NCBI GenBank assembly: GCA_000525025.1
Contig: JCKJ01000001.1
Location: 248,001-312,000, forward strand
Source: Methylophilaceae bacterium 11
Lineage (GTDB): Bacteria; Pseudomonadota; Gammaproteobacteria; Burkholderiales; Methylophilaceae
DNA: 64,000 bases
Reading direction: 5' to 3'
Position numbers and translations under genes: made by a program. Below are positions 2,268-28,913 of the stretch, in pieces. The stretch's first letter is position 1. Every line of letters starts with the position of its first letter. The notes under the pieces were generated by a model, which searched no databases, was not told where the DNA came from, and worked only from the letters and a program-made list of their open reading frames with translations.

Positions 2268-3530
2268 ATGGCATCACGTAGCATTTTGGTAGTAGATGAT
2301 GAAATCGGGATTCGTGAACTCTTAAGTGATATTTTGCTGGATGAAGGGCACCATGTGCGTTTGGCAGAAAATGCGCACATTGCGCGTGAAGAGCGTCTGA
2401 AAGAACGCCCGGATTTGGTGTTGCTAGATATCTGGATGCCAGACTGCGATGGCATTAGCTTGCTAAAAGAATGGGGTAACTCTGGCTTGCTGACGATGCC
2501 AGTCGTCATGATGTCTGGACATGGCACCATTGATACTGCGGTGGAAGCTACCCGCATAGGCGCCTTTGATTTTTTAGAGAAGCCTATCGCGCTACAAAAA
2601 TTACTTAAAACAGTCTCTGCTGCCTTAAAGCATGGTGAAACACTCCCACACACTGAAATGAATCTGGCCAGTTTTGGTAAGAGCATTGTTATCAATGAGT
2701 TAAAACAACGGTTAGAGCAAATATCGCGCAGTAAAAACACTTTACTGTTGGTAGGCAAAAAAGGCGGTAGTGTTGAGCTATGTGCACAGTTTTTACGCGC
2801 ACCTGGCACGCCTTGGATAGCGTTAAATGAATATGAAAAACTAGCGACCTCGCCACTGGAAGTGCTGGATCAAGTACGTGATGGCGTATTGTTTATAGAC
2901 GAGGTCACAGCGCTTAGTAAGACAGAGCAAAAAGGGCTGAGCCTGATTATAGCCAAAGCCGAGAAATTGGGTACGCGTGTGGTCTGTGCCACCACGTTTG
3001 GTATTCCGCAACTGATTGAAAATGGTGCACTGGAGCAGGGCTTATTACAAGTGCTCGCCAGCGGTGCCATTCGTGTGCCTTGCTTGAATGAGCATCGTGA
3101 AGACATTCCCGACTTGGTGAATGCCATGGCTACCCTGTTGGTCGAGACCATGAGTCTAGGTTATAAATCGTTTGATATAGCTGCACTCAATGCACTGAGA
3201 AATGCTGAGTGGCATGGCGATTTATCTGAGTTGGAAGCGGTAGTGCAAAACCTGATGTTATCTACCTTGGGTGAGGTCATCACCTTGGAAGATGTGCAAC
3301 GCGTGTTAGACCAGTTTAAGCAGGCGCCGCAACATGCAGCACTTGCGCCGTTACCGATAGATTTAACGCGTTCTTTGCGTGAGGCGCGAGATGATTTCGA
3401 GCGCTTTTATTTTCAGCATCATATGAAGCTGATTCACAACAATATGAGTAAACTCGCTGAGATTTCTGGCTTGGAACGCACGCACCTTTACCGGAAGCTG
3501 AAGCAGCTAGGTATTAAAATCAAGGGCTAA
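2268..3530 (+). CDS. ntrX: NtrX-type response regulator with degenerate AAA+ domain
   Basis: This is the partner regulator of the preceding kinase, 53 bases downstream with a good ribosome site (GAGGGAAG). The 420-residue protein has a receiver domain (residues 1-120; acceptor Asp54 in LVLLDIWMPD), a central domain in the position of a sigma-54 activator AAA+ module, and a C-terminal Fis-type helix-turn-helix (MSKLAEISGLERTHLYRKL). The central domain is degenerate: the Walker A place reads LVGKKGGSVE, without a GxxxxGK[ST] loop. No GAFTGA sigma-54 contact motif is present, although a Walker B-like GVLFIDEV remains. It therefore probably binds DNA without driving sigma-54 open-complex formation. 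Confidence 0.9.
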   Translation: MASRSILVVDDEIGIRELLSDILLDEGHHVRLAENAHIAREERLKERPDLVLLDIWMPDCDGISLLKEWGNSGLLTMPVVMMSGHGTIDTAVEATRIGAFDFLEKPIALQKLLKTVSAALKHGETLPHTEMNLASFGKSIVINELKQRLEQISRSKNTLLLVGKKGGSVELCAQFLRAPGTPWIALNEYEKLATSPLEVLDQVRDGVLFIDEVTALSKTEQKGLSLIIAKAEKLGTRVVCATTFGIPQLIENGALEQGLLQVLASGAIRVPCLNEHREDIPDLVNAMATLLVETMSLGYKSFDIAALNALRNAEWHGDLSELEAVVQNLMLSTLGEVITLEDVQRVLDQFKQAPQHAALAPLPIDLTRSLREARDDFERFYFQHHMKLIHNNMSKLAEISGLERTHLYRKLKQLGIKIKG

Positions 3531-3534
3531 CAGT

Positions 3535-4302
3535 TTAGACGTTTAGCTCAAGCACGACTGGTGTATGGTCGCTTGGGCGCTCCAGTTTTCTCGGTGCTTT
3601 ATCAATCACACATGTGGTGCAGGCAGATGTTAACGGTGTGCTCACCAAAATATGATCTATCCGCATACCTAAGTTGCGTCTAAACCCGGCCATGCGGTAA
3701 TCCCACCAAGTAAACTGTCCATCTTCATTATTCAATAACCTAAAGCTGTCGTGCAGGCCTAGCGAGAGCAATTGGTTAAATGCCTCTCGCTCGGGCGGGC
3801 TGACTAGTACTTGCCCTAGCCAAGCTGCCGGATCATGGCAATCCCGATCTTGCGGGGCAATGTTGTAGTCCCCCAGCACAGCTAGGTTAGCATGCTGTTT
3901 TAACTCATCGATCAACCATGCATGAAACGCTTGTAGCCAGCGTAGCTTGTATTGATATTTATCAGAATCCACGGCTTGCCCGTTGACCACATACGCACAA
4001 ATCACGCGTACCCCTTGAATCGTGGCAGCAATCACACGTCTTTGTTCGTCTGCAAAGTTTGGCATATCACGCTGCACATTTTCCAACGCATGGGGGCTTA
4101 GAATCGCCACGCCGTTATAGGTTTTTTGCCCATTATGGATTGCGTTATAGCCGATTTCTTTTAAAGCCTCGTATGGAAATTTGCTGTCCTCTTGTTTGGT
4201 TTCTTGCAAACACAACGCATCTGGTTGGTTGGTATTAAGCCAATCCAACACATGAGGCAACCGTACGTTTAAAGAGTTAACATTCCAAGTGGCGAGTTTC
4301 AA
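3535..4302 (-). CDS. xth: Exodeoxyribonuclease III
   Basis: This is an Mg-dependent AP endonuclease and 3'-5' exonuclease of base excision repair, in the cytoplasm. The 255-residue protein has the family motifs in order: KLATWNVNSLNVR at the N-terminus, LCLQETK (metal-binding Glu34), GDYNIAP, the WWDYR loop, IDHILVS and the C-terminal SDHTPVV with the catalytic Asp-His pair. The length is typical. It converges on ntrX with only four bases between the stop codons and has its own leftward transcription. Confidence 0.95.
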   Translation of the reverse strand: MKLATWNVNSLNVRLPHVLDWLNTNQPDALCLQETKQEDSKFPYEALKEIGYNAIHNGQKTYNGVAILSPHALENVQRDMPNFADEQRRVIAATIQGVRVICAYVVNGQAVDSDKYQYKLRWLQAFHAWLIDELKQHANLAVLGDYNIAPQDRDCHDPAAWLGQVLVSPPEREAFNQLLSLGLHDSFRLLNNEDGQFTWWDYRMAGFRRNLGMRIDHILVSTPLTSACTTCVIDKAPRKLERPSDHTPVVLELNV

Positions 4303-21894: not shown

Positions 21895-22917
21895 TTGTCT
21901 GGCAATCATGTCGTTGTTGTAGGCGGTGGCATTGTAGGCTGCACCACTGCCATGCTGCTTAGGCAACAGGGGTGGCAAGTCACAGTGGTGGAGCGTAACG
22001 TCATTGCCGCCCAAACCTCCGGTGAGGCTTCTTGGGCCGGTGCCGGTATTATCTTTCCGTTATTGCCTTGGTTTTATCAAGATGCTGTTAACGCACTTGC
22101 TATGGAAGGCGCCAGCCTGTATCCAGCATTGGCCGATCAGTTGCACCGTGAAACCGGCATAGACCCAGAATGTATACGTAGTGGCATGATGATTCAACCG
22201 CCGTTTGATTTAGAGGCCGCACTGGCATGGTGTAGTGCCAATCACGTGCAAGCTGATCTCAATGGCGAAAATCTATGGTTGCCAGAGGTGCTGCAAGTGC
22301 GCAACCCTAGATTGCTGCAAGCACTCAAAGCATGGCTAATACAGCATCAAGTTGAGCTTAAAGAACAAACGCAACTAATGCCGTTGCCAGAGCCAGAATT
22401 TGGCGAGCAGGGCGTGCTTAAACGTTGGCAAACCACAAGCGGGGAAACGCTAGAAGCCGATATTTTTATTGTCACCTCTGGCGCGTGGAGTTTCGATTTA
22501 CTCAAACAGACTGCGCTGAGCCTAGAAATCAAACCCATGCGCGGACAAATGCTGCTCTATCAACTTAGCCAGCCTGTTTTAGATCATATTATTTACCGGG
22601 ATGGTTTTTATATGGTGCCACGCAAAGATGGCTACCTGCTGGCGGGCAGTACGCTGGAAGATGTGGGGTTTGATACGGGCGTGACTGAAGCCATGCGTGT
22701 GGAAATGCAGGCCAAAGCAGAAGCGATATTGCCGCAACTCAAAGATGCGCCAATGGTTAAACACTGGAGCGGCTTGCGGCCGGGTACACCGCACAATATT
22801 CCTACAATTGGACAACACCCGCATATCAGTAATTTATATCTGAATACTGGCCATTTTCGTTATGGCGTCACCATGGCACCGGCAAGTGCGAAAAGGCTGG
22901 TAGCGTTAGTTTCTTAG
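21895..22917 (+). CDS. thiO: FAD-dependent glycine oxidase-like enzyme
   Basis: This is a DAAO-fold flavoenzyme that probably oxidises glycine to iminoglyoxylate for thiazole synthesis of thiamine. The 340-residue protein has an N-terminal Rossmann motif VVVVGGGIVGCTTAMLL, the ThiO-type GEASWAGAGIIFPLLPW, GFYMVPRKDGYLLAGSTLE and the C-terminal LNTGHFRYGVTMAPASAKRL. The start is TTG at 21895 with a GAAGGG site. It follows the antiporter gene after 12 bases. Its 3' end marks the left border of the integron array. No other thi gene is visible, so a D-amino acid oxidase role remains open. Confidence 0.85.
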   Translation: MSGNHVVVVGGGIVGCTTAMLLRQQGWQVTVVERNVIAAQTSGEASWAGAGIIFPLLPWFYQDAVNALAMEGASLYPALADQLHRETGIDPECIRSGMMIQPPFDLEAALAWCSANHVQADLNGENLWLPEVLQVRNPRLLQALKAWLIQHQVELKEQTQLMPLPEPEFGEQGVLKRWQTTSGETLEADIFIVTSGAWSFDLLKQTALSLEIKPMRGQMLLYQLSQPVLDHIIYRDGFYMVPRKDGYLLAGSTLEDVGFDTGVTEAMRVEMQAKAEAILPQLKDAPMVKHWSGLRPGTPHNIPTIGQHPHISNLYLNTGHFRYGVTMAPASAKRLVALVS

Positions 22918-22932
22918 TTCGCTCAATAGATC

Positions 22933-22990
22933 TTCCAACGTTTGACATAAGGGGCGCCGTTAGGCGTCCTGCTTGAATGATGGGTTGGGC
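22933..22990 (-). repeat. attC site of cassette 11 (distal end)
   Basis: The plus strand reads TTCCAAC (22933-22939), then the stem arm AAGGGGCGCC, tip GTTA, arm GGCG, and closes with GTTGGGC (22984-22990). The tip is the CGCC/GGCG type. This copy has diverged more than the others (GACATAA for GAATTAA, and CCTGC for CCCGC), as expected for an old terminal cassette. It begins 16 bases after the thiO stop. Confidence 0.88.
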
Positions 22991-22991
22991 G

Positions 22992-23453
22992 TTATTTCCA
23001 AAACTGCCACGACTTATTTGGAGGCTTAATAGCCTTGGCCTTACTTTGCAGAAATAGTAGATATTTTGGGTCTTGGTCTTCAAAAATCTCTGTCCCGGCA
23101 CCCATATACGCACGCATTAACTCGTCGGCTGCGCGATCAATGACTTGTAATTCAAATTGGCATTGGCCAAGACGTAGGTGAAGGAATGGATTTCCGATTG
23201 CGTTAGGACAGTGCATGGCTTGTGAAAGATTGTCACGGCCTGCGACATAATCACCGCTTAGAAAATTTGCATCTCCAACTGCGGCAAGTATCCATGTAGC
23301 GGCTTCCCATTCGGTTTTGGGTTCAGGCAACAAATCCCATGCTGCCCAATATGACTGCAAAGCATCAGGGTACTGCTTTGCTTTAGCAGATTTGTCGCCT
23401 GTAGCGCAAAGGCGTTGAATATCCTCATGGGTTCCGTCCGATAGCTCTGCCAT
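22992..23453 (-). CDS. Cassette 11: TPR-like cytoplasmic protein of unknown function
   Basis: The 153-residue product has no signal peptide. It is helical, with tetratricopeptide-like spacing: KQYPDALQSYWAAWDLLPEP, an ANFLSGDYVAGRDNLSQAM helix pair and a third around LRLGQCQFELQVIDRAADEL. TPRs mediate protein contacts, so an adaptor or inhibitor role is possible but not shown. The start at 23453 has a clear AAGGAG site. The TAA stop falls directly against the attC. The gap to the upstream cassette gene is only 33 bases and lacks a complete attC, so this gene now travels with cassette 10. Confidence 0.75.
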   Translation of the reverse strand: MAELSDGTHEDIQRLCATGDKSAKAKQYPDALQSYWAAWDLLPEPKTEWEAATWILAAVGDANFLSGDYVAGRDNLSQAMHCPNAIGNPFLHLRLGQCQFELQVIDRAADELMRAYMGAGTEIFEDQDPKYLLFLQSKAKAIKPPNKSWQFWK

Positions 23454-23472
23454 TGATACTCCTTAGCGTAAG

Positions 23473-23490
23473 GCCCAACGCCTGAATTAT
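23473..23490 (-). repeat. attC half-site (truncated) of cassette 10
   Basis: The plus strand reads GCCCAAC (23473-23479), then GCCTGAATTA. This matches the start of the full sites here (YYYAAC-G-TTTGAATTA), but the stem, tip and second boundary box are gone. Coding sequence of the cassette 10 gene begins at once, and its stop TAA lies inside the TGAATTA element. It is most simply a deletion product of a full attC. Confidence 0.7.
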
Positions 23491-23897
23491 GCGGATTCAT
23501 TTTTCTGTTTCATTGCCTTAATGCTTGCTTTCACCAGCTTCTTAACTAATATCTTTGGTATCGCCCTGTCCACTGGAAAGCTGACAATGGCTTTTGTAGA
23601 AGCGTAGCCTCCAAGGTCTTCCTTATTGTCTTCCAGCACTGGAGGTCGAACATGCAAGCGCACATGGGGTTTCTTAAAACTAAACCACGCGAACATTCCG
23701 TTGTAATCGTATCCTTCATAGAAATATCCAGGCATCTGAAAATAGCTGACTGTTTCAGTGGAACCAGGAGCCGCCGCCTGTATCGCAATCCGAATGTCCG
23801 TCAATCGGACCTGTACGTCCTTCGGGCATTTTTCTATGTATTCGTCAACACCACCGGGTAGGACGTCATTGGATTTGCTGTTCGCATTTCGTAGCAT
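23487..23897 (-). CDS. Cassette 10: DUF1801 (YdhG-like) protein
   Basis: The product is about 136 residues from the ATG at 23897 (MLRNANSKSND), which has GGAG six bases upstream; the open frame continues to a TTG at 23909. It matches the DUF1801 pattern: VDEYIEKCPKDVQVRLTDIRIAIQAAAPGSTETVSYFQMPGYFY, an aromatic core AWFSFKKPHVRLHVRPP, and a final KILVKKLVKASIKAM helix. DUF1801/YdhG proteins have a compact fold of unknown function that is common on mobile DNA. The protein seems complete although its attC is truncated. Confidence 0.8.
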   Translation of the reverse strand: MLRNANSKSNDVLPGGVDEYIEKCPKDVQVRLTDIRIAIQAAAPGSTETVSYFQMPGYFYEGYDYNGMFAWFSFKKPHVRLHVRPPVLEDNKEDLGGYASTKAIVSFPVDRAIPKILVKKLVKASIKAMKQKNESA

Positions 23898-23931
23898 GTT
23901 CATCTCCAAAATCTAAGATTGGCTTCAAGCA

Positions 23932-23989
23932 GCATAACGTTTGAATTAAGGGGCGCCGTTAGGCGTCCCGCTTGAATGATGGGTTAGGC
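23932..23989 (-). repeat. attC site of cassette 9
   Basis: The boundary boxes are GCATAAC (23932-23938) and GTTAGGC (23983-23989). The stem is AAGGGGCGCC with tip GTTA and return arm GGCG-T-CCC-G-CTT-G-AA, giving three unpaired bases T, G and G on the plus strand. The tip is the CGCC/GGCG type. The stop codon of the cassette 9 gene is the TAA inside GTTAGGC read on the minus strand. Confidence 0.92.
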
Positions 23990-24313
23990 TGATACACGTA
24001 AGGGTCCGTTTCTTTCTTGGATATATTGCGCATAACCACTGAAATGCTTTTGCCGGGACAAGTAGTGTGGGTAATGCTCAAGATGCCAAGAACAACCTTG
24101 AATGAATTTATCATGTTCGATACCCAGCTCATTGGAAAGAGCCTCAAATTGATAAAGGTCATTCAGTAGCTCAGCGCATTGTTTTGTAGTTGCTGCGTTT
24201 GGATTCCATATAACTCCTGCGGGTAGCTCATGCATTGAATACTTTAAAACCTCGAATAGTCTTTCGTATTCTTTAAGCAATACTTGTTTAGATTGTTTTC
24301 CATCAATACTCAT
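23984..24313 (-). CDS. Cassette 9: unknown cytoplasmic protein
   Basis: The 109-residue, mainly helical product has no signal peptide or membrane segment. It starts MSIDGKQSKQVLLKEYERLF and contains a Trp/His/Tyr-rich stretch, GCSWHLEHYPHYLSRQKHF (residues about 73-91). I do not recognise the family. The ATG at 24313 has no convincing ribosome site. The TAA stop is supplied by the attC boundary box, so the last codons (RVSA) are set by the cassette end. Confidence 0.65.
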   Translation of the reverse strand: MSIDGKQSKQVLLKEYERLFEVLKYSMHELPAGVIWNPNAATTKQCAELLNDLYQFEALSNELGIEHDKFIQGCSWHLEHYPHYLSRQKHFSGYAQYIQERNGPLRVSA

Positions 24314-24325
24314 ACTGGCTTTTCT

Positions 24326-24385
24326 GTCTAACGTTTTAATTAAGGGGCTGGCTTTAGCCAGTCCCGCTTGAATGATGGGTTGGAC
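24326..24385 (-). repeat. attC site of cassette 8
   Basis: The boundary boxes are GTCTAAC (24326-24332) and GTTGGAC (24379-24385). The stem is AAGGGGCTGGC with tip TTTA and return arm GCCAG-T-CCC-G-CTT-G-AA. This is the CTGGC/GCCAG tip type. Confidence 0.93.
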
Positions 24386-24388
24386 GCA

Positions 24389-24844
24389 CTACTTAAGAAC
24401 ACGAGTTATCCGTATTGGGCTAAGCGTTATTAATTCCTGTTTCTCAACATTTTCTCCTTGCCAGTAAAGATTGGCGCGATTCTCAAAAATAGGGAGGTTG
24501 TCTGTATTTTGCATGTTGGCAAGTGTCCAATCTCCGATGTGACTTGGAGCCTCTGAATCAACAAGTTCGACCTCATACCCAAGGTCAAGATGGCGGTTTG
24601 TTGAGTTGCGAAATTCGTTGAGATCAGCCTCATTAAGGCAGACGTAAATGCACTCAAAACGACTGGGTTTATTTGGAAAATTCTGAACTCTGACTAATTC
24701 ATATGCCAATTCACGCGTAAGTAACCAATGGTTTGGAGATGATTGAGGTGTATAGGTGCGCAGAATGCGCCCCCAGTTTCCTGGGCGGATAATGCTACCA
24801 ACCTCTAGTGGCAGTGAGTAGCAGTAAAAGTATTTCTGGCTCAT
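24389..24844 (-). CDS. Cassette 8: DUF2441-like protein
   Basis: The product is about 151 residues from the ATG at 24844 (MSQKYFYCYSLPLEVGSIIRPGNWGRILRTY); a TTG start five codons earlier is also open. The N-terminal Y-C-Y-S-L-x-x-G-S-I-I-x-P-G-N-W-G-R-I pattern, LARELV-like TRELAYELVR and PSRFECIYVCLNEADLNEF resemble DUF2441 proteins as I remember them. That family has no established function, though its layout hints at an ADP-ribosyltransferase-like or RES-like fold (my inference). It has no signal peptide. Confidence 0.65.
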   Translation of the reverse strand: MSQKYFYCYSLPLEVGSIIRPGNWGRILRTYTPQSSPNHWLLTRELAYELVRVQNFPNKPSRFECIYVCLNEADLNEFRNSTNRHLDLGYEVELVDSEAPSHIGDWTLANMQNTDNLPIFENRANLYWQGENVEKQELITLSPIRITRVLK

Positions 24845-24853
24845 GTTTGATGC

Positions 24854-24913
24854 GTCCAACGTTTGAATTAAGGGGCTGGCTTTAGCCAGTCCCGCTTGAA
24901 TGATGGGTTAGGA
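24854..24913 (-). repeat. attC site of cassette 7
   Basis: The boundary boxes are GTCCAAC (24854-24860) and GTTAGGA (24907-24913). The CTGGC/GCCAG tip type and the same three unpaired bases are present. Confidence 0.93.
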
Positions 24914-25267
24914 GATGTTTGTAAAATCATATGTACCCCCACTTATTCTAAGGCTGGAAACCTCTACAGATAATTCAACTTCATATTCACTGAGTTGTTT
25001 AGCCATTTTAGCAAAACGTGGTTTATATTCATTTTTAGGCCAGAATTCACATGAAACTCTGAAAATAACTGCTTTGCCTTTACACTCTGGCACTTGCTCT
25101 GAAAGTTGGCCTGACAACACAAACTCTAAATATGTTTCTGCTTTATCGGCTATGTCTTCAATTGTGTAGTCCGCTCCCAATTCGCCAGAACAGTACATGA
25201 TAAGCATAGCTTTACCGTCATTTGTTAATCCGCATCTGTCGATAGTATTTTTTTCGTGAACGCTCAT
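24908..25267 (-). CDS. Cassette 7: small cytoplasmic protein, possibly DUF6572-like
   Basis: The 119-residue product begins MSVHEKNTIDRCGLTNDGKAMLIMYCSGEL. The N-I-D-x-x-G-x-x-x-x-G-K-x-x-L-x-I pattern recalls the DUF6572 family of small immunity-like or stand-alone proteins; the match is from memory and uncertain. The centre is acidic and helical, and the C-terminal half alternates beta-type residues (YEVELSVEVSSLRISGG). The start lies three bases after AGGAG, and that AGG comes from the attC box of cassette 6. The stop is the TAA of its own attC box. Confidence 0.65.
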   Translation of the reverse strand: MSVHEKNTIDRCGLTNDGKAMLIMYCSGELGADYTIEDIADKAETYLEFVLSGQLSEQVPECKGKAVIFRVSCEFWPKNEYKPRFAKMAKQLSEYEVELSVEVSSLRISGGTYDFTNIS

Positions 25268-25271
25268 AAAC

Positions 25272-25331
25272 TCCTAACGTTTGAATTAAGGGGCTGGCTT
25301 TAGCCAGTCCCGCTTGAATGATGGGTTAGCC
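25272..25331 (-). repeat. attC site between cassettes 6 and 7 (belongs to cassette 6)
   Basis: The boundary boxes are TCCTAAC (25272-25278) and GTTAGCC (25325-25331). The CTGGC/GCCAG tip type is present. Read on the minus strand, its end gives GTTAGGAG, which also serves as ribosome site for the cassette 7 gene. Confidence 0.93.
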
Positions 25332-25335
25332 ATAT

Positions 25336-25746
25336 TCACTGAGGAACCTCAAGTAGTGAGCGTAGCGTATTAATGTCTGTTTGAGAGAACGACTGAAATG
25401 CACATGGCTGATCACTCAAATTACTACCGCTTAAATGATCTGCCATCAAAGTGATTTGGGTGTTTGTGGAATTTAATTGCGACAATGAGCTGGTACTACC
25501 ATCAGCATGCTTCAGCGTAATACTGAGCGTGCGAAGTGGTGGTGTGTAGAAGCAATGCCCCCAGCCTGAGCTATTGCCGCTGAGCCATACAGAGAGGGCC
25601 TGTAATTGTGGCTGGGTTAATAGCTTTTTTACCCAAGTTTTGTCTTTAGCTTTATAGGACACCGAACCAGCAATAAGTGGCGACATTTCTTCTTGGCAAG
25701 ACGAGAGCAGTAGAATTGTGAGTGTTGCAATGAATGTGAGCTTCAT
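25336..25746 (-). CDS. Cassette 6: predicted lipoprotein
   Basis: The 136-residue product has a lipoprotein signal peptide: basic start MK, hydrophobic LTFIATLTILLL and lipobox LSSC with the modified Cys at residue 17. The mature part is Ser/Thr/Leu-rich, with two more Cys (WGHCFYTPP and QPCAFQSF) that may pair. Its core, GWGHCFYTPPLRTLSITLKHADGS, looks beta-rich. No family is recognised. The ATG follows the attC box of cassette 5 by four bases, with no clear Shine-Dalgarno sequence. Confidence 0.7.
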   Translation of the reverse strand: MKLTFIATLTILLLSSCQEEMSPLIAGSVSYKAKDKTWVKKLLTQPQLQALSVWLSGNSSGWGHCFYTPPLRTLSITLKHADGSTSSLSQLNSTNTQITLMADHLSGSNLSDQPCAFQSFSQTDINTLRSLLEVPQ

Positions 25747-25748
25747 AT

Positions 25749-25808
25749 GGCTAACGTTTGAATTAAGGGGCTGGCTTTAGCCAGTCCCGCTTGAATGATG
25801 GGTTAGGC
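25749..25808 (-). repeat. attC site of cassette 5
   Basis: The boundary boxes are GGCTAAC (25749-25755) and GTTAGGC (25802-25808). The CTGGC/GCCAG tip type and canonical three unpaired bases are present. Confidence 0.93.
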
Positions 25809-25811
25809 TGT

Positions 25812-26261
25812 TTATTTTGAACATTTAACACCCACTACTGTGTTAACCTCTTCCTCACCCCAACCTGTTTCGCGCCAACGATAAATGCCTGGAGCAACCA
25901 TAGAGAGCTCCCACTCGACTAAACTCCCATCTTTTCGCGCCCTAGTTTCATTGTCGTATCTAATTACGAGTGTTCGGTCAGTTGCACTAATAATTGTTGC
26001 TGAATAATGGTCAGTAGTTTCACCATTATCCAGTTTCCACGTTCGGTCTAGAAGTATGTTGAGTTTTTTCTCAATTGGTTTTATTTCCATCTTGAAATGC
26101 AAATTATCTGAAGAACATGCTGGTTTATTGTTGTAACTTTCTGCCCAATCTCCAGAAAGTTGCTCGGTATTAAATGGAAAGCTTTCAGAGTGAGCGGTAC
26201 ATGAAATTGCTGCAACTGCAAATAATAAGACTGCCAGTGAGTTTTTATTGTTTTTCTTCAT
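25812..26261 (-). CDS. Cassette 5: exported protein of unknown function
   Basis: The 149-residue product has a signal peptide (MKKNNKNSLAVLLFAVAAISCTAHSES). AISC could act as a lipobox with Cys21, or cleavage could follow AHS. The mature protein looks like a small beta-barrel of lipocalin-like layout: LSGDWAESYNNKPACSSDNLHFKMEI, then repeated strands, and a closing RWRETGWGEEEVNTVVGVKC. The phrase G-x-W-A at the start of the barrel and the two Cys support that picture, but it is inference. A GGA ribosome site precedes the ATG at 26261. Confidence 0.7.
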   Translation of the reverse strand: MKKNNKNSLAVLLFAVAAISCTAHSESFPFNTEQLSGDWAESYNNKPACSSDNLHFKMEIKPIEKKLNILLDRTWKLDNGETTDHYSATIISATDRTLVIRYDNETRARKDGSLVEWELSMVAPGIYRWRETGWGEEEVNTVVGVKCSK

Positions 26262-26290
26262 TTATTAATTTCCAATTCTTGTAATTTAAA

Positions 26291-26348
26291 GCCTAACGTT
26301 TGAATTAAGGGGCGCCGTTAGGCGTCCCGCTTGAATGATTGGTTAGGT
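26291..26348 (-). repeat. attC site of cassette 4
   Basis: The boundary boxes are GCCTAAC (26291-26297) and GTTAGGT (26342-26348). The tip is CGCC/GGCG. The last spacer reads GATTG instead of GATGG. Confidence 0.92.
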
Positions 26349-26349
26349 A

Positions 26350-26871
26350 TTAGATACCAGGACGAAAACATAACTCTTCACTTGCTTTCATAATTTTAAT
26401 GTCAGGAATTATGTATGGTTGGTCATTGATTATAAGTTTAGGTATTTGAAAAATTTTTGGGGTTGTTTCGAGATAATATTCTGTTTCAATCGTAGCAATA
26501 TAACCGTCATTTGGTTGAGTTGGCATAGGCGCTAACTTTGGTATATGAAAAGTGTTTGTTTGTGCATGTGTGTTTGCATCAAGCTCAATTAAGTTGTCAT
26601 TTTCGAAGTTTGTACTTATTTTTTTAGGATTTCCCCAGACGACTATCTTTAAGTTATAACTTCCGTATTTCTTACCATTTCTCCAATCAAAAGAAACTCT
26701 AGTACCATTTTCAAGCTCGATTAGATTGGCAGTAGGAACTGCTGATTGGTAAGTTTTTACATCTTTTGGAATATTTATTAGCGTTTTCTTTAGATGTGTT
26801 ACAGGCCTACAACTGGAACAACTAGCTAACAATAAACTTAATGCAATCAAAAAAATATAAGTTTTTGCCAT
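26350..26871 (-). CDS. Cassette 4: predicted lipoprotein
   Basis: The 173-residue product has a classical lipoprotein signal peptide (MAKTYIFLIALSLLLASC, lipobox LASC with Cys18) followed by another Cys (SSCRP). The mature part carries INIPKDVKTYQSAVP and then repeated beta-type segments (TRVSFDWRNGKKYGSYNLKIVVWG). It ends with a Cys near the C-terminus (LCFRPGI). No family is recognised. It shares a short IP-x-DVK...VP motif with the product of cassette 3. The region is visibly A+T-rich against the flanks. The AGG of the preceding attC box may serve as ribosome site. Confidence 0.7.
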   Translation of the reverse strand: MAKTYIFLIALSLLLASCSSCRPVTHLKKTLINIPKDVKTYQSAVPTANLIELENGTRVSFDWRNGKKYGSYNLKIVVWGNPKKISTNFENDNLIELDANTHAQTNTFHIPKLAPMPTQPNDGYIATIETEYYLETTPKIFQIPKLIINDQPYIIPDIKIMKASEELCFRPGI

Positions 26872-26876
26872 TTGCT

Positions 26877-26936
26877 ACCTAACGTATGACATAAGGGGCG
26901 CGCTTTAGCGCGTCCCGCTTGATTGATGGGTTAGAT
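26877..26936 (-). repeat. attC site of cassette 3
   Basis: The boundary boxes are ACCTAAC (26877-26883) and GTTAGAT (26930-26936). The third tip type, CGCGC-TTTA-GCGCG, is present. The outer arm differs (GTATGACATAAGG for GTTTGAATTAAGG), with GATTGATGGG on the return arm. Confidence 0.92.
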
Positions 26937-27559
26937 TATTTGCTACATTCATACTTTTCACCACCTGACTTACATAGTTCTATTGGGCTAAAATCTGAAA
27001 AGAAGCTATCAACGTTTGCGCTTGTGAGCGTGTTGCCCACTTCAGACCTAATGGCTTTCTGAACTACATAAATATCTTTAGAGCCCTGAATAACCAGCCA
27101 GTAAGCAACCTCACTAAAGTTTTGGCTGGGTACTTTTGAGCAACCCAGAATAGCACGGTGTGCTTTAAACCCATCAACGGTTGTTGCTCCAAGGTCATCG
27201 AAAACAAGATCCTTCCCACAAATTGTCTTGAAACGATTTGCGGTGTCAGTTAAAAATCGTTCAGGTGTTACTCTGTTGGCTAAACTTTCAAATCCCTGAA
27301 TTGTTAAAAGATTTTTCCAAGAATCAATATTTTCATTTTGAGGGGTAAATTCCATCATGAATATATTTGGTTTTTGATCTTGGAATGCATTTTTCCAAGA
27401 AGTTGGTAAACGAAAAGCTAATTTTTGACTGTAAATTGGAACGACAGCTTTGGCAGATTTAACGTCAGCTGGAATGCTCGGTACTTTTTTGAAATCAGTG
27501 TCAGCTACACACTGCTGAGAAATAAATAAAAACGTAACCAAAAATAATTGCTTTGTCAC
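26936..27559 (-). CDS. Cassette 3: exported protein of unknown function
   Basis: The 207-residue product starts with GTG at 27559; GGAG lies seven bases upstream and supports that start. A signal peptide (MTKQLFLVTFLFISQQCVADT) is followed by VPSIPADVKSAKAVVP. The mixed alpha/beta body contains LAFRLPTSWKNAF, a FESLANRVTPERFLTDTANRFKTIC helix and a final SFFSDFSPIELC. The layout (short strand, membrane-binding-type helix, then V-D-G-F-K-A-H-R-A-I) recalls PsbP/Mog1-like or stress-response exported folds, but I do not claim membership. It is the longest gene of the array. Confidence 0.7.
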   Translation of the reverse strand: MTKQLFLVTFLFISQQCVADTDFKKVPSIPADVKSAKAVVPIYSQKLAFRLPTSWKNAFQDQKPNIFMMEFTPQNENIDSWKNLLTIQGFESLANRVTPERFLTDTANRFKTICGKDLVFDDLGATTVDGFKAHRAILGCSKVPSQNFSEVAYWLVIQGSKDIYVVQKAIRSEVGNTLTSANVDSFFSDFSPIELCKSGGEKYECSK

Positions 27560-27584
27560 GAAATAACTCCATTCATAATTAATT

Positions 27585-27644
27585 ATCTAACGTTTGAATT
27601 AAGGGGCTGGCTTTAGCCAGTCCCGCTTGAATGATGGGTTAGGT
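27585..27644 (-). repeat. attC site of cassette 2
   Basis: The boundary boxes are ATCTAAC (27585-27591) and GTTAGGT (27638-27644). The CTGGC/GCCAG tip type is present. Confidence 0.93.
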
Positions 27645-27905
27645 TGCATTTGGTTGTACAGGTAGTGTGTTAGCAACAAGCATAATGATTACCCAAATGA
27701 CAATTGCGACCCAAATAATGCCAAAAATTCTTATAAGGTATGGTTGTACATGAATCTTCAAATCTTTGGGGGCCATTTTAAATTTCTTCATAAGTCCAAA
27801 CTGAAAATTTAGGAAATTCTGAAATCCATTTGGTTTAAACAAAAGCCATAAGCCGAAAAACAAAGGTAGAAATAATGAAAGATGATTTGTCAAATTAACA
27901 TTCAT
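27639..27905 (-). CDS. Cassette 2: small two-helix membrane protein
   Basis: The 88-residue product has two strongly hydrophobic segments (HLSLFLPLFFGLWLLF, residues 8-23, and IRIFGIIWVAIVIWVIIMLVA, residues 58-78). A basic amphipathic linker joins them (GLMKKFKMAPKDLKIH). It is probably an inner-membrane hairpin with both ends on one side. The layout resembles small DUF-type membrane proteins with an F-x-P-x-G-F-Q motif, but no family is claimed. The stop TAA is within its attC box. Confidence 0.65.
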   Translation of the reverse strand: MNVNLTNHLSLFLPLFFGLWLLFKPNGFQNFLNFQFGLMKKFKMAPKDLKIHVQPYLIRIFGIIWVAIVIWVIIMLVANTLPVQPNAT

Positions 27906-27911
27906 TGAAAA

Positions 27912-27971
27912 ACCTAACGTTTGAATTAAGGGGCGCGCTTTAGCGCGTCCCGCTTGAATGATGGGTTAGGC
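27912..27971 (-). repeat. attC site of cassette 1
   Basis: The boundary boxes are ACCTAAC (27912-27918) and GTTAGGC (27965-27971). The CGCGC-TTTA-GCGCG tip type, as in cassette 3, is present. Confidence 0.92.
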
Positions 27972-28241
27972 TGGTGAAACAACAGTGCCGCGTGAAGCTG
28001 AATAAATGGTGACATAGCAAGCGACCCCAAACCGTGAATAACCAAAACAGTAACTGAAAAGCACCGCACTGCCAACAATAGCAAGCGCACAAACTAAGCG
28101 GAAATTAACGTGCTTAGCCCAACAAAACCAAAACCCACAAAAGCCACAAACTTAACTAAACCAAGCGCCAAGCAAGACAACAAAAGCAGACAATTTAAAC
28201 GAAAGCAACGCTGGCAAAAACGAGAAGGTTTTAAGAATAGC
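27966..28241 (-). pseudogene. Cassette 1: no intact gene; open frame without ATG and with one internal stop
   Basis: Between the attC of cassette 1 and the junction box at 28240-28246 there is no ORF with a normal start. On the minus strand one frame stays open for 92 codons from 28241 to the attC stop at 27966-27968, broken only by a TAA at 28152-28154. The conceptual product is very hydrophobic and aromatic (for example KLSAFVVLLGAWF and GSAVLFSYCFGYSRFG). The strand bias is strong: the plus strand is A/C-rich and poor in G and T. It could be a decayed gene, a non-coding cassette or one acting as RNA. Confidence 0.5.
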
Positions 28242-28294
28242 CTAACGTAAAGTAGACACCAAATCCGTCCCTAAAAATTTAGTTGGACAGGTGC
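28240..28294 (-). other. Candidate relic attI / array boundary with imperfect hairpin
   Basis: GCCTAAC (28240-28246) is the last boundary box of the array. On the minus strand the end reads GTCTACTTTACGTTAGGC. A degenerate box (GTCTACT) thus lies just before GTTAGGC, as in the simple site of an attI. Beyond it an imperfect hairpin forms from CACC, GTCC and CTAAA (28257-28275) with TTTAG, GGAC and GGTG (28278-28293). A GTTGGAC box lies at 28282-28288. No complete attC can be folded here. Confidence 0.3.
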
Positions 28295-28436
28295 CTAATC
28301 TGTTGTGAAGTAAGAAATTTATCATTAAATCAATGCGCTATTCATTTTTATTACACCTTAATAATCGGTTGTTGTAATCACAAACACACCTTGTATATAG
28401 CGCAGGTTTTGTTGAGTTATCTTGGCATGGATGTGA
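28295..28436. other. Non-coding gap between array and moaC
   Basis: This stretch should hold intI if an integron platform were still present. I see no open frame with integrase motifs on either strand. A short rightward frame from 28283 runs into the antisense of moaC and is not a gene. With cassette 1 it makes about 330 bases without an intact gene. Nothing else is recognised. Confidence 0.6.
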
Positions 28437-28913
28437 TTACTTGGCAACCCAGTCCCCACTCTTGCCGCCATGCTTTTCCAGCAATTTGATATGGTGCATG
28501 ACCATGCCTCTATCCACCGCTTTACACATATCGTAAATCGTTAGCAGCGCCACTTGTACTGCAGTCAGTGCTTCCATTTCTACGCCAGTGGGCCCCACCG
28601 TTTCACAGGTCACTTGGCAGCGGATGCTGGATTCGGCTTGGAATACATCAAAATGTACTTTGACGCTGGTGAGGGCAATGGGGTGGCAGAGTGGAATTAA
28701 GTCAGATGTTTTTTTACTGGCTTGAATCGCGGCAATGCGGGCAATGCCTAGTACATCGCCTTTTTTGGCATCGCCTTGGGTAATGAGTTGTAGCGTGGCC
28801 GGTAGCATGGAGATGTCTCCGCTCGCCACCGCAATACGTTTGGTAGAAGCTTTGTCGCCAATATCTACCATATGGGCTTGCCCCTGTGCATTCAGGTGCG
28901 TTAACTTGCTCAT
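28437..28913 (-). CDS. moaC: Cyclic pyranopterin monophosphate synthase MoaC
   Basis: This enzyme works with MoaA in the first step of molybdenum cofactor synthesis, forming cPMP. The 158-residue protein has the family motifs [70 protein letters not shown] and a final [12 protein letters not shown]. The length and catalytic Lys and Asp regions are normal. It stands alone and marks the right border of the integron array. Confidence 0.96.

Follow-up and report, generated by a model that had tools for sequence, protein, structure and literature searches.

Can a cassette array that has no integrase beside it still be a working part of an integron? This question is raised by a row of small genes and attC recombination sites between thiO and moaC in Methylophilaceae bacterium 11, a methanol-eating bacterium. 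The window, by which we mean the whole stretch of 64 kb that was analysed, comprises bases 248001-312000 of its closed 2,786,829-base chromosome (one contig, 99.99% complete); positions are those of the window unless a contig or locus is named. Judged by its relatives, the host belongs in or next to Methylophilus. Its ThiO protein is 83-85% identical to that of a Methylophilus metagenome-assembled genome (MAG) and of MAG Betaproteobacteria Ga0077540, and about 70% identical to those of named Methylophilus strains. The comparison of genomes presented here makes it probable that the array is an integron platform with an attI site and cassettes and without an integrase gene (intI), belonging to a distributed integron in which one integrase (IntI) serves several attI sites in trans.

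The gene thiO is on the plus strand with its stop at 22917, moaC is on the minus strand with its stop at 28437, and the array fills nearly the entire gap. A first attC model (R1) had been trained on the window's own sites, which makes it circular for the window, and was replaced by a covariance model (R3) built from 90 attC sites, all of other genomes. The ten complete attC sites that an initial annotation had read from the letters were recovered with R3, which finds exactly ten in the window, all in the array and on the minus strand, with 66.7-88.6 bits (E 1.3e-14 to 3e-20). Counted from the moaC side, they are at 27908-27975 (88.4 bits, E 3.4e-20), 27581-27648 (86.9 bits), 26873-26940 (80.8 bits), 26287-26352 (76.8 bits), 25745-25812 (88.6 bits, E 3e-20), 25268-25335 (88.6 bits), 24850-24917 (82.4 bits), 24322-24389 (77.7 bits), 23928-23993 (72.8 bits) and 22929-22994 (66.7 bits, E 1.3e-14); the GTT end of the tenth and last site is 16 nt past the thiO stop. 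The only other R3 matches in the 64 kb are weak and are on the opposite strand of the same ten palindromes. Among the 90 sites of other genomes, 97.1% of the cells in the attC hairpin are paired and 10 of 14 pairs have changed on both sides; covariation as high was reached in 0 of 500 shuffles, with the caveat that the alignment of these sites had been fitted to the structure. The initial annotation had named beforehand a low score in an attC covariance model as the outcome that would speak against an array. The scores are high and the array stands.

Between the attC sites there are ten minus-strand open reading frames (ORFs) and one gene-less cassette at 27976-28240, which is the content that had been proposed. 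The annotation had also counted one half-site, and two remnants were in fact seen. GTTGGGC at about 23476 (23470-23482, minus strand; read in the sequence and under threshold in both attC models) is what is left of an attC that has mostly been lost, and the genes at 22992-23453 and 23487-23909 now share one cassette. GTTAGGC at 28240-28246, on the other hand, is the crossover end of an attI and not half an attC. As had been noted, the window holds no integron integrase, and a search of the whole genome with TIGR02249 places the nearest true intI 1.37 Mb away. With at least two attC sites (ten) and no integron integrase nearby, the array is a cluster of attC sites lacking integron-integrases (CALIN), as it had been called, by operational definition. 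It is not a bare one, however, because a complete attI stands at its start. What separates the moaC locus from a complete integron is the missing intI next to this attI.

To describe the attI, we used a profile (R2) of 152 nt trained on ten intI-adjacent attI sites of the genus only. The R2 match in the window is at 28242-28391 on the minus strand (model positions 3-152, 68.2 bits, E 1.4e-18 for the whole genome). While the left border given in the initial annotation was right, the right border has to be moved, as the element reaches 28391. The site carries AGGTGT at 28386-28391 and at 28353-28358 (33 nt apart), an AT-rich spacer and the core GTCTACTTTACGTTAG, and its crossover is within GTTAGGC at 28240-28246. 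In the host genome R2 finds two sites only, this one and the attI next to intI. Pairwise alignment of the two gives a score of 120, compared to 43 for the best of 1000 shuffles. They agree over the last 17 nt (GTCTACTTTACGTTAG and the G before it), and both the distance from the first AGGTGT to the core (152 nt) and the spacing of the AGGTGT pair are the same. The general layout is AGGTGT, 27 nt, AGGTGT, about 115 nt and GTTAG, with a total of 149-152 nt where all parts are present, and this holds for intI-adjacent sites as much as for integrase-less ones. At sites with intI, the first AGGTGT falls within the first codons of that gene; integrase-less sites retain this repeat. For Methylophilaceae, the attI is thereby defined as an element of about 150 nt with AGGTGT as a direct repeat, the first copy of which is within the intI coding sequence. 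In the group of the host genome (G000), the attI sites also have ACACCT, a third and inverted copy, near the core. IntI or a regulator might bind to the AGGTGT repeats, including the inverted copy. We had considered a special excision mechanism that would place the edge of orphan attI sites at the intI start codon. This idea was dropped because the alignment puts the start at the AGGTGT inside the first intI codons and because other platforms carry plain intI remnants. A sigma-70 consensus scan of 28150-28520 for a putative cassette promoter Pc gave no match. Read-through into the cassettes from the co-directional moaC is possible.

The intact IntI of the host is encoded at C1:1651411-1652355. 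It is of full length and scores 490 bits with TIGR02249 (cut-off 265); comparison with 2a3v, the solved structure of the integron integrase of Vibrio cholerae, gave a match of 310 residues spanning the whole protein (E 8.6e-92), with the catalytic segments present. An attI and at least eight cassettes belong to this locus. Some attC sequences of the window array recur letter for letter in the intI array, and identical sites also occur in two further clusters. The search of the rest of the genome that the initial annotation had suggested thus yielded a full-length IntI with its array as well as two more attC clusters, which lie at 2.09 and 2.61 Mb (L018, C1:2089.7-2091.2 kb; L019, 2610.4-2610.9 kb). 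With R2, neither cluster shows a clear attI, one 14-bit match at L018:1468-1595 being all that was found; they look like ordinary CALINs or arrays with foreign attC sites upstream. The assignment of the cassettes to the sedentary chromosomal kind is borne out by the identical attC sites across the host's arrays and by the presence of intI in 20 of the 22 genomes of the genus set (G000-G021). Judged from its sequence, the host genome has an intact IntI, near-identical attC sites and vertical inheritance in the lineage, as is characteristic of a sedentary chromosomal integron.

The moaC platform is not the only one of its kind. In the 22 Methylophilus genomes, R2 finds 15 intI-adjacent and about 15 clear integrase-less attI sites, the latter in 11 genomes; the weak orphan matches G001 C25 and G020 C32:75693 were excluded from this count. 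Integrase-less sites stand behind moaC in G000 and G011, behind fabI in G002, G003, G005, G007, G009 and G016, behind typA in G002, G005 and G009, and behind mutL in G008 and G017, and two singletons are found elsewhere. The array direction at the platforms is that of the housekeeping gene, and at most of them same-strand attC sites follow downstream of the attI. At the moaC, fabI, typA and mutL loci examined, intI is never present at the site but is located elsewhere. Some platform sites are weak (G002 typA, 18.5 bits). No attI match was obtained in the two genus genomes without IntI, nor in 139 genomes of the family set of 187 Methylophilaceae genomes. Other genera of the family also have several attI sites, up to five per genome, including the orthologous pairs G178/G179 and G165/G173. 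From these sequences, it follows that an attI need not adjoin intI, and several in Methylophilaceae do not.

Truncated 5′ remnants of intI, roughly 140-215 nt long, are present at typA (G009, G005 and partly G002) and at both G178/G179 sites. At the moaC, fabI and mutL platforms where this was tested, including beside the window attI, no intI trace above shuffles was detected. On this sequence basis, an origin of platforms by intI truncation is shown for some of them only. In G078 (L224, L225), each of two attI sites is beside an intI pseudogene with stops, and these sites are apparent intermediates of intI loss. G178 (L211-L214) has five attI matches and its sole detected intI is internally deleted, so that its platforms may now be stranded without any integrase. 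In G179 the IntI is still intact, at another place in the genome.

Orthologous platforms were compared in pairs. In most of these comparisons, homology runs from the host gene through the attI, ends within a few nucleotides of the crossover and resumes past the array. In the window and in G011, the attI follows moaC after about 43 nt, the array ends at thiO and no intI is present; the two loci are collinear to offset 0, then 5.3 kb and 1.7 kb have only attC repeats in common, and homology continues at 79% in thiO. The fabI platforms of G002 and G003 are 96.7% identical up to +1, carry different cassettes and are 98.5% identical beyond the array. At prmB, G179 and G178 share 95.3% up to +1, then have 3.8 kb and 5.0 kb of different cassettes, followed by 96.5%. 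Further pairs compared were the second G179/G178 site, G007/G016 at fabI, G005/G009 at typA, and G165/G173. Exceptions are fabI of G005/G009, where the break is about 10 nt before the end of the attI match, the degraded G002 typA site, where it precedes the attI, and the mutL pair, which is too divergent for a continuous alignment. Over the attI, orthologous platforms are 63-91% identical (56-59% for the degraded G002 typA), whereas the next 150 nt show 42-53%, which is the level of shuffled sequences. In G007/G016, distal cassettes can be common while proximal ones differ, as is expected from insertion at attI. Within G008, the intI array and the mutL platform share a cassette stretch of 258 nt at 99.6% identity, and cassettes common to integrase-less and intI arrays of different species are 88-96% identical.

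The pairs with intI remnants allow the events to be ordered. At typA and at both G178/G179 sites, the same truncated remnant is present in both genomes of a pair. Read most simply, the sequences thus place the loss of intI before the species split and the cassette differences after it. On this reading, the cassettes changed after intI had been lost, and the integrase must have come from elsewhere.

Two observations concern the moaC locus in other genomes. In the G011 array (L127:2150-2300), a Methylophilus-type attC is accompanied by at least one attC that differs markedly in type; this points to the capture of cassettes from a different lineage. In Methylophilus rhizosphaerae, the gap between thiO and moaC is 7.5 kb (L026:11098-18699) and starts with a partial second moaC copy (32 codons, 69%). 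Some insertion is present there, and no attC of the Methylophilus array type was found in it.

In integron recombination, IntI joins the folded bottom strand of the attC of a circular cassette to the double-stranded attI. In the host, the single intact IntI would most likely recombine circular cassettes with the moaC attI in trans. New cassettes would be added next to moaC, and IntI may also excise cassettes. The moaC-thiO site, which is common to two species with different cassettes, was most likely inherited without an integrase, the cassettes between attI and thiO having since been replaced completely. The same arrangement, one IntI with at least one integrase-less attI platform at a conserved site after a housekeeping gene, recurs in the genus and the family. 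Action of IntI in trans on the moaC attI, its present-day activity and selection that keeps this attI are what we infer from the sequences. For the family, the wider claim that integrons are distributed, with one integrase and several inherited integrase-less attI platforms kept by selection, perhaps for differences in expression (read-through) or stability, has in our estimate an even chance of being right. In that case, loss of intI at a platform would be a stable state rather than decay.

Several points weigh against the distributed integron. The evidence is comparative throughout, with no recombination observed. With no intI remnant at moaC, it is conceivable that an integrase was there until recently and was lost twice. 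Identity between the two moaC attI sites, of the window and G011, is just 64% across 150 nt and 75% across the final 60 nt, and the G011 site is closer to the intI-adjacent attI than the window copy is. Thus the attI may have been replaced, or platforms may have arrived independently at the same spot. Some differences could be due to differential loss from a larger ancestral array. Finally, the window cassettes have no near-identical copy in the host's other arrays, and recent exchange at the moaC platform is thus unsupported.

The most serious competitor to the distributed integron, improbable as we consider it, is a dead relic: a complete integron at moaC would have lost its intI and now be an inert, decaying CALIN with the attI left by chance. 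CALINs are usually regarded as degraded integrons (PMC9024848), other platforms show intI remnants and pseudogenes, one attC of the window array (23476) has decayed, and some platform attI sites are weak, such as the 18.5-bit site at G002 typA. A relic is hard to reconcile, however, with ten intact attC sites and a complete attI whose repeat spacing is preserved, with cassettes that changed from the crossover on at sister platforms despite shared intI loss, and with the near-identical cassette on the intI array and the integrase-less array in G008.

The remaining explanations appear much less probable. An inversion or translocation between the moaC and intI sites could have separated the array from intI, which is a published origin of CALINs (PMC8618304), and the shared attC repeats could recombine. 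But an attI and an array are present at the intI locus as well, and the moaC platform, like that of G011, combines an attI with intact moaC and thiO flanks; the second attI and the synteny largely refute a rearrangement, and we regard it as very unlikely. Even less credence is given to an off-target insertion, in which IntI would have placed cassettes in a secondary (attG-like) site downstream of moaC that is no true attI. This, too, is a published CALIN origin (PMC8618304), and experiments in E. coli, cited in PMC12444791, have shown insertion at attG. A secondary site would share few core bases, though, whereas here 120-150 nt are homologous to the intI-adjacent attI, with repeats at fixed spacing and at several conserved positions, by which this origin is already largely refuted. 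Least probable of all is a repeat family of the repetitive extragenic palindromic or bacterial interspersed mosaic element (REP/BIME) type, or an assembly artefact. Such short palindromic repeats do sit between genes, and the initial annotation had named their spread around the genome without genes of this kind as a second outcome against the array. The repeats are not dispersed in this way: the 25 genome-wide attC matches at E ≤ 0.001 are mostly in clusters with cassette genes (a few are weak single ones), and R and L boxes, attC covariation, one-strand preference and a cognate IntI all speak against REP/BIME. An artefact is contradicted by the single contig.

The cargo had been described as a reservoir of unknown biology, which is a fair description: only three of the ten products pass a Pfam cut-off, each with a domain of unknown function (DUF). 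No product passes an NCBIfam cut-off and none has a PADLOC match. An Rfam search of the window gave no match; Rfam has no attC or attI family. Following the array from moaC on the minus strand, one first meets the gene-less cassette (27976-28240), whose 265 nt align at 88% identity with the cassette that opens the G007 intI array. Stops and an indel separate the two, which have no reading frame in common; the cassette may contain a promoter or an RNA. Weaker relatives of it were observed in four further genomes besides G007. The ORFs that follow encode a hydrophobic protein of 88 aa (27639-27905; no family over cut-off), a 207-aa protein with a signal-like N-terminal segment (26936-27559; no family), a 173-aa protein with a lipoprotein-like N-terminus (LLLASC; 26350-26871; no family), a 149-aa protein with a signal-like N-terminus (25812-26261; no family over cut-off) and a 136-aa protein with a lipoprotein-like N-terminus (LLLSSC; 25336-25746; no family). 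These are followed by a DUF6572 protein of 119 aa (24908-25267; PF20212, 47.5 bits, cut-off 27), a DUF2441 protein of 156 aa (24389-24859; PF10386, 33.8 bits, cut-off 25), a 109-aa protein (23984-24313; no family), a DUF1801 protein of 140 aa (23487-23909; PF08818, 36.9 bits, cut-off 27.2) and a 153-aa protein (22992-23453; no family over cut-off). As far as can be predicted, this cargo is ordinary for integrons, being mostly unknown with several secreted or lipoprotein-like products. Where reading frames enter an attC (L001 ORFs 2586-2927 and 3380-3796; window 23959-24162), they share one protein tail (NPSFKRDA...), since each of them continues through the attC in an identical frame. This attC-derived tail is spurious and may be included in annotated cassette proteins.

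In published descriptions, an integron has a single attI, which adjoins the integrase (PMC9024848, PMC3607928). CALINs often accompany complete integrons; they have been explained as degraded integrons, off-target insertions or rearrangement products (PMC9024848, PMC8618304), and their mobilisation in trans is considered possible (PMC12444791). Descriptions of attI sites from outside class 1 are poor, and IntegronFinder seeks attI for class 1 only (PMC9024848), so that attI-led platforms are not told from decayed CALINs. In the open-access papers searched, we did not come across inherited attI platforms that lack an integrase and exchange cassettes, and by its sequence the moaC array is an attI-led, integrase-less platform, a variant that we have not found described. 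Both in teaching and in searches, an integron consists of one integrase, one attI and one array, whereas here the parts are dispersed and still seem to work. If this holds, many of the CALINs now classed as decayed may be active platforms, recognisable by their attI, and the active integron sites per genome would be counted higher. Both a definition of attI outside class 1 and the natural reach of IntI in trans would become testable, and the same platform with the same lost intI and different cassettes would provide natural replicates for such questions.

Among known systems, the delta-attI cassettes of mobile class 1 and 2 integrons (PMC12901181) resemble the platforms in having displaced attI-derived sites usable by IntI1, but there the attI pieces are at cassette ends in mobile resistance integrons and not at chromosomal platforms. 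The Xanthomonas CALINs (PMC12444791) likewise are integrase-less arrays at recurrent loci with intI elsewhere in the genome; no attI was reported for them, and they were interpreted as a sign of ancestral integron activity. With CALINs in general, the moaC array shares two or more attC sites and the lack of an intI nearby, but it retains a complete attI and its position, and orthologous platforms change cassettes after intI loss. The closest likeness is to the sedentary chromosomal integrons of Vibrio, Xanthomonas and Treponema, with an attI, mostly unknown cassettes in one direction, highly similar attC sites and a species-specific chromosomal IntI. The difference is that here intI and the moaC attI with its array are 1.37 Mb apart, in a genome that has more than one attI.

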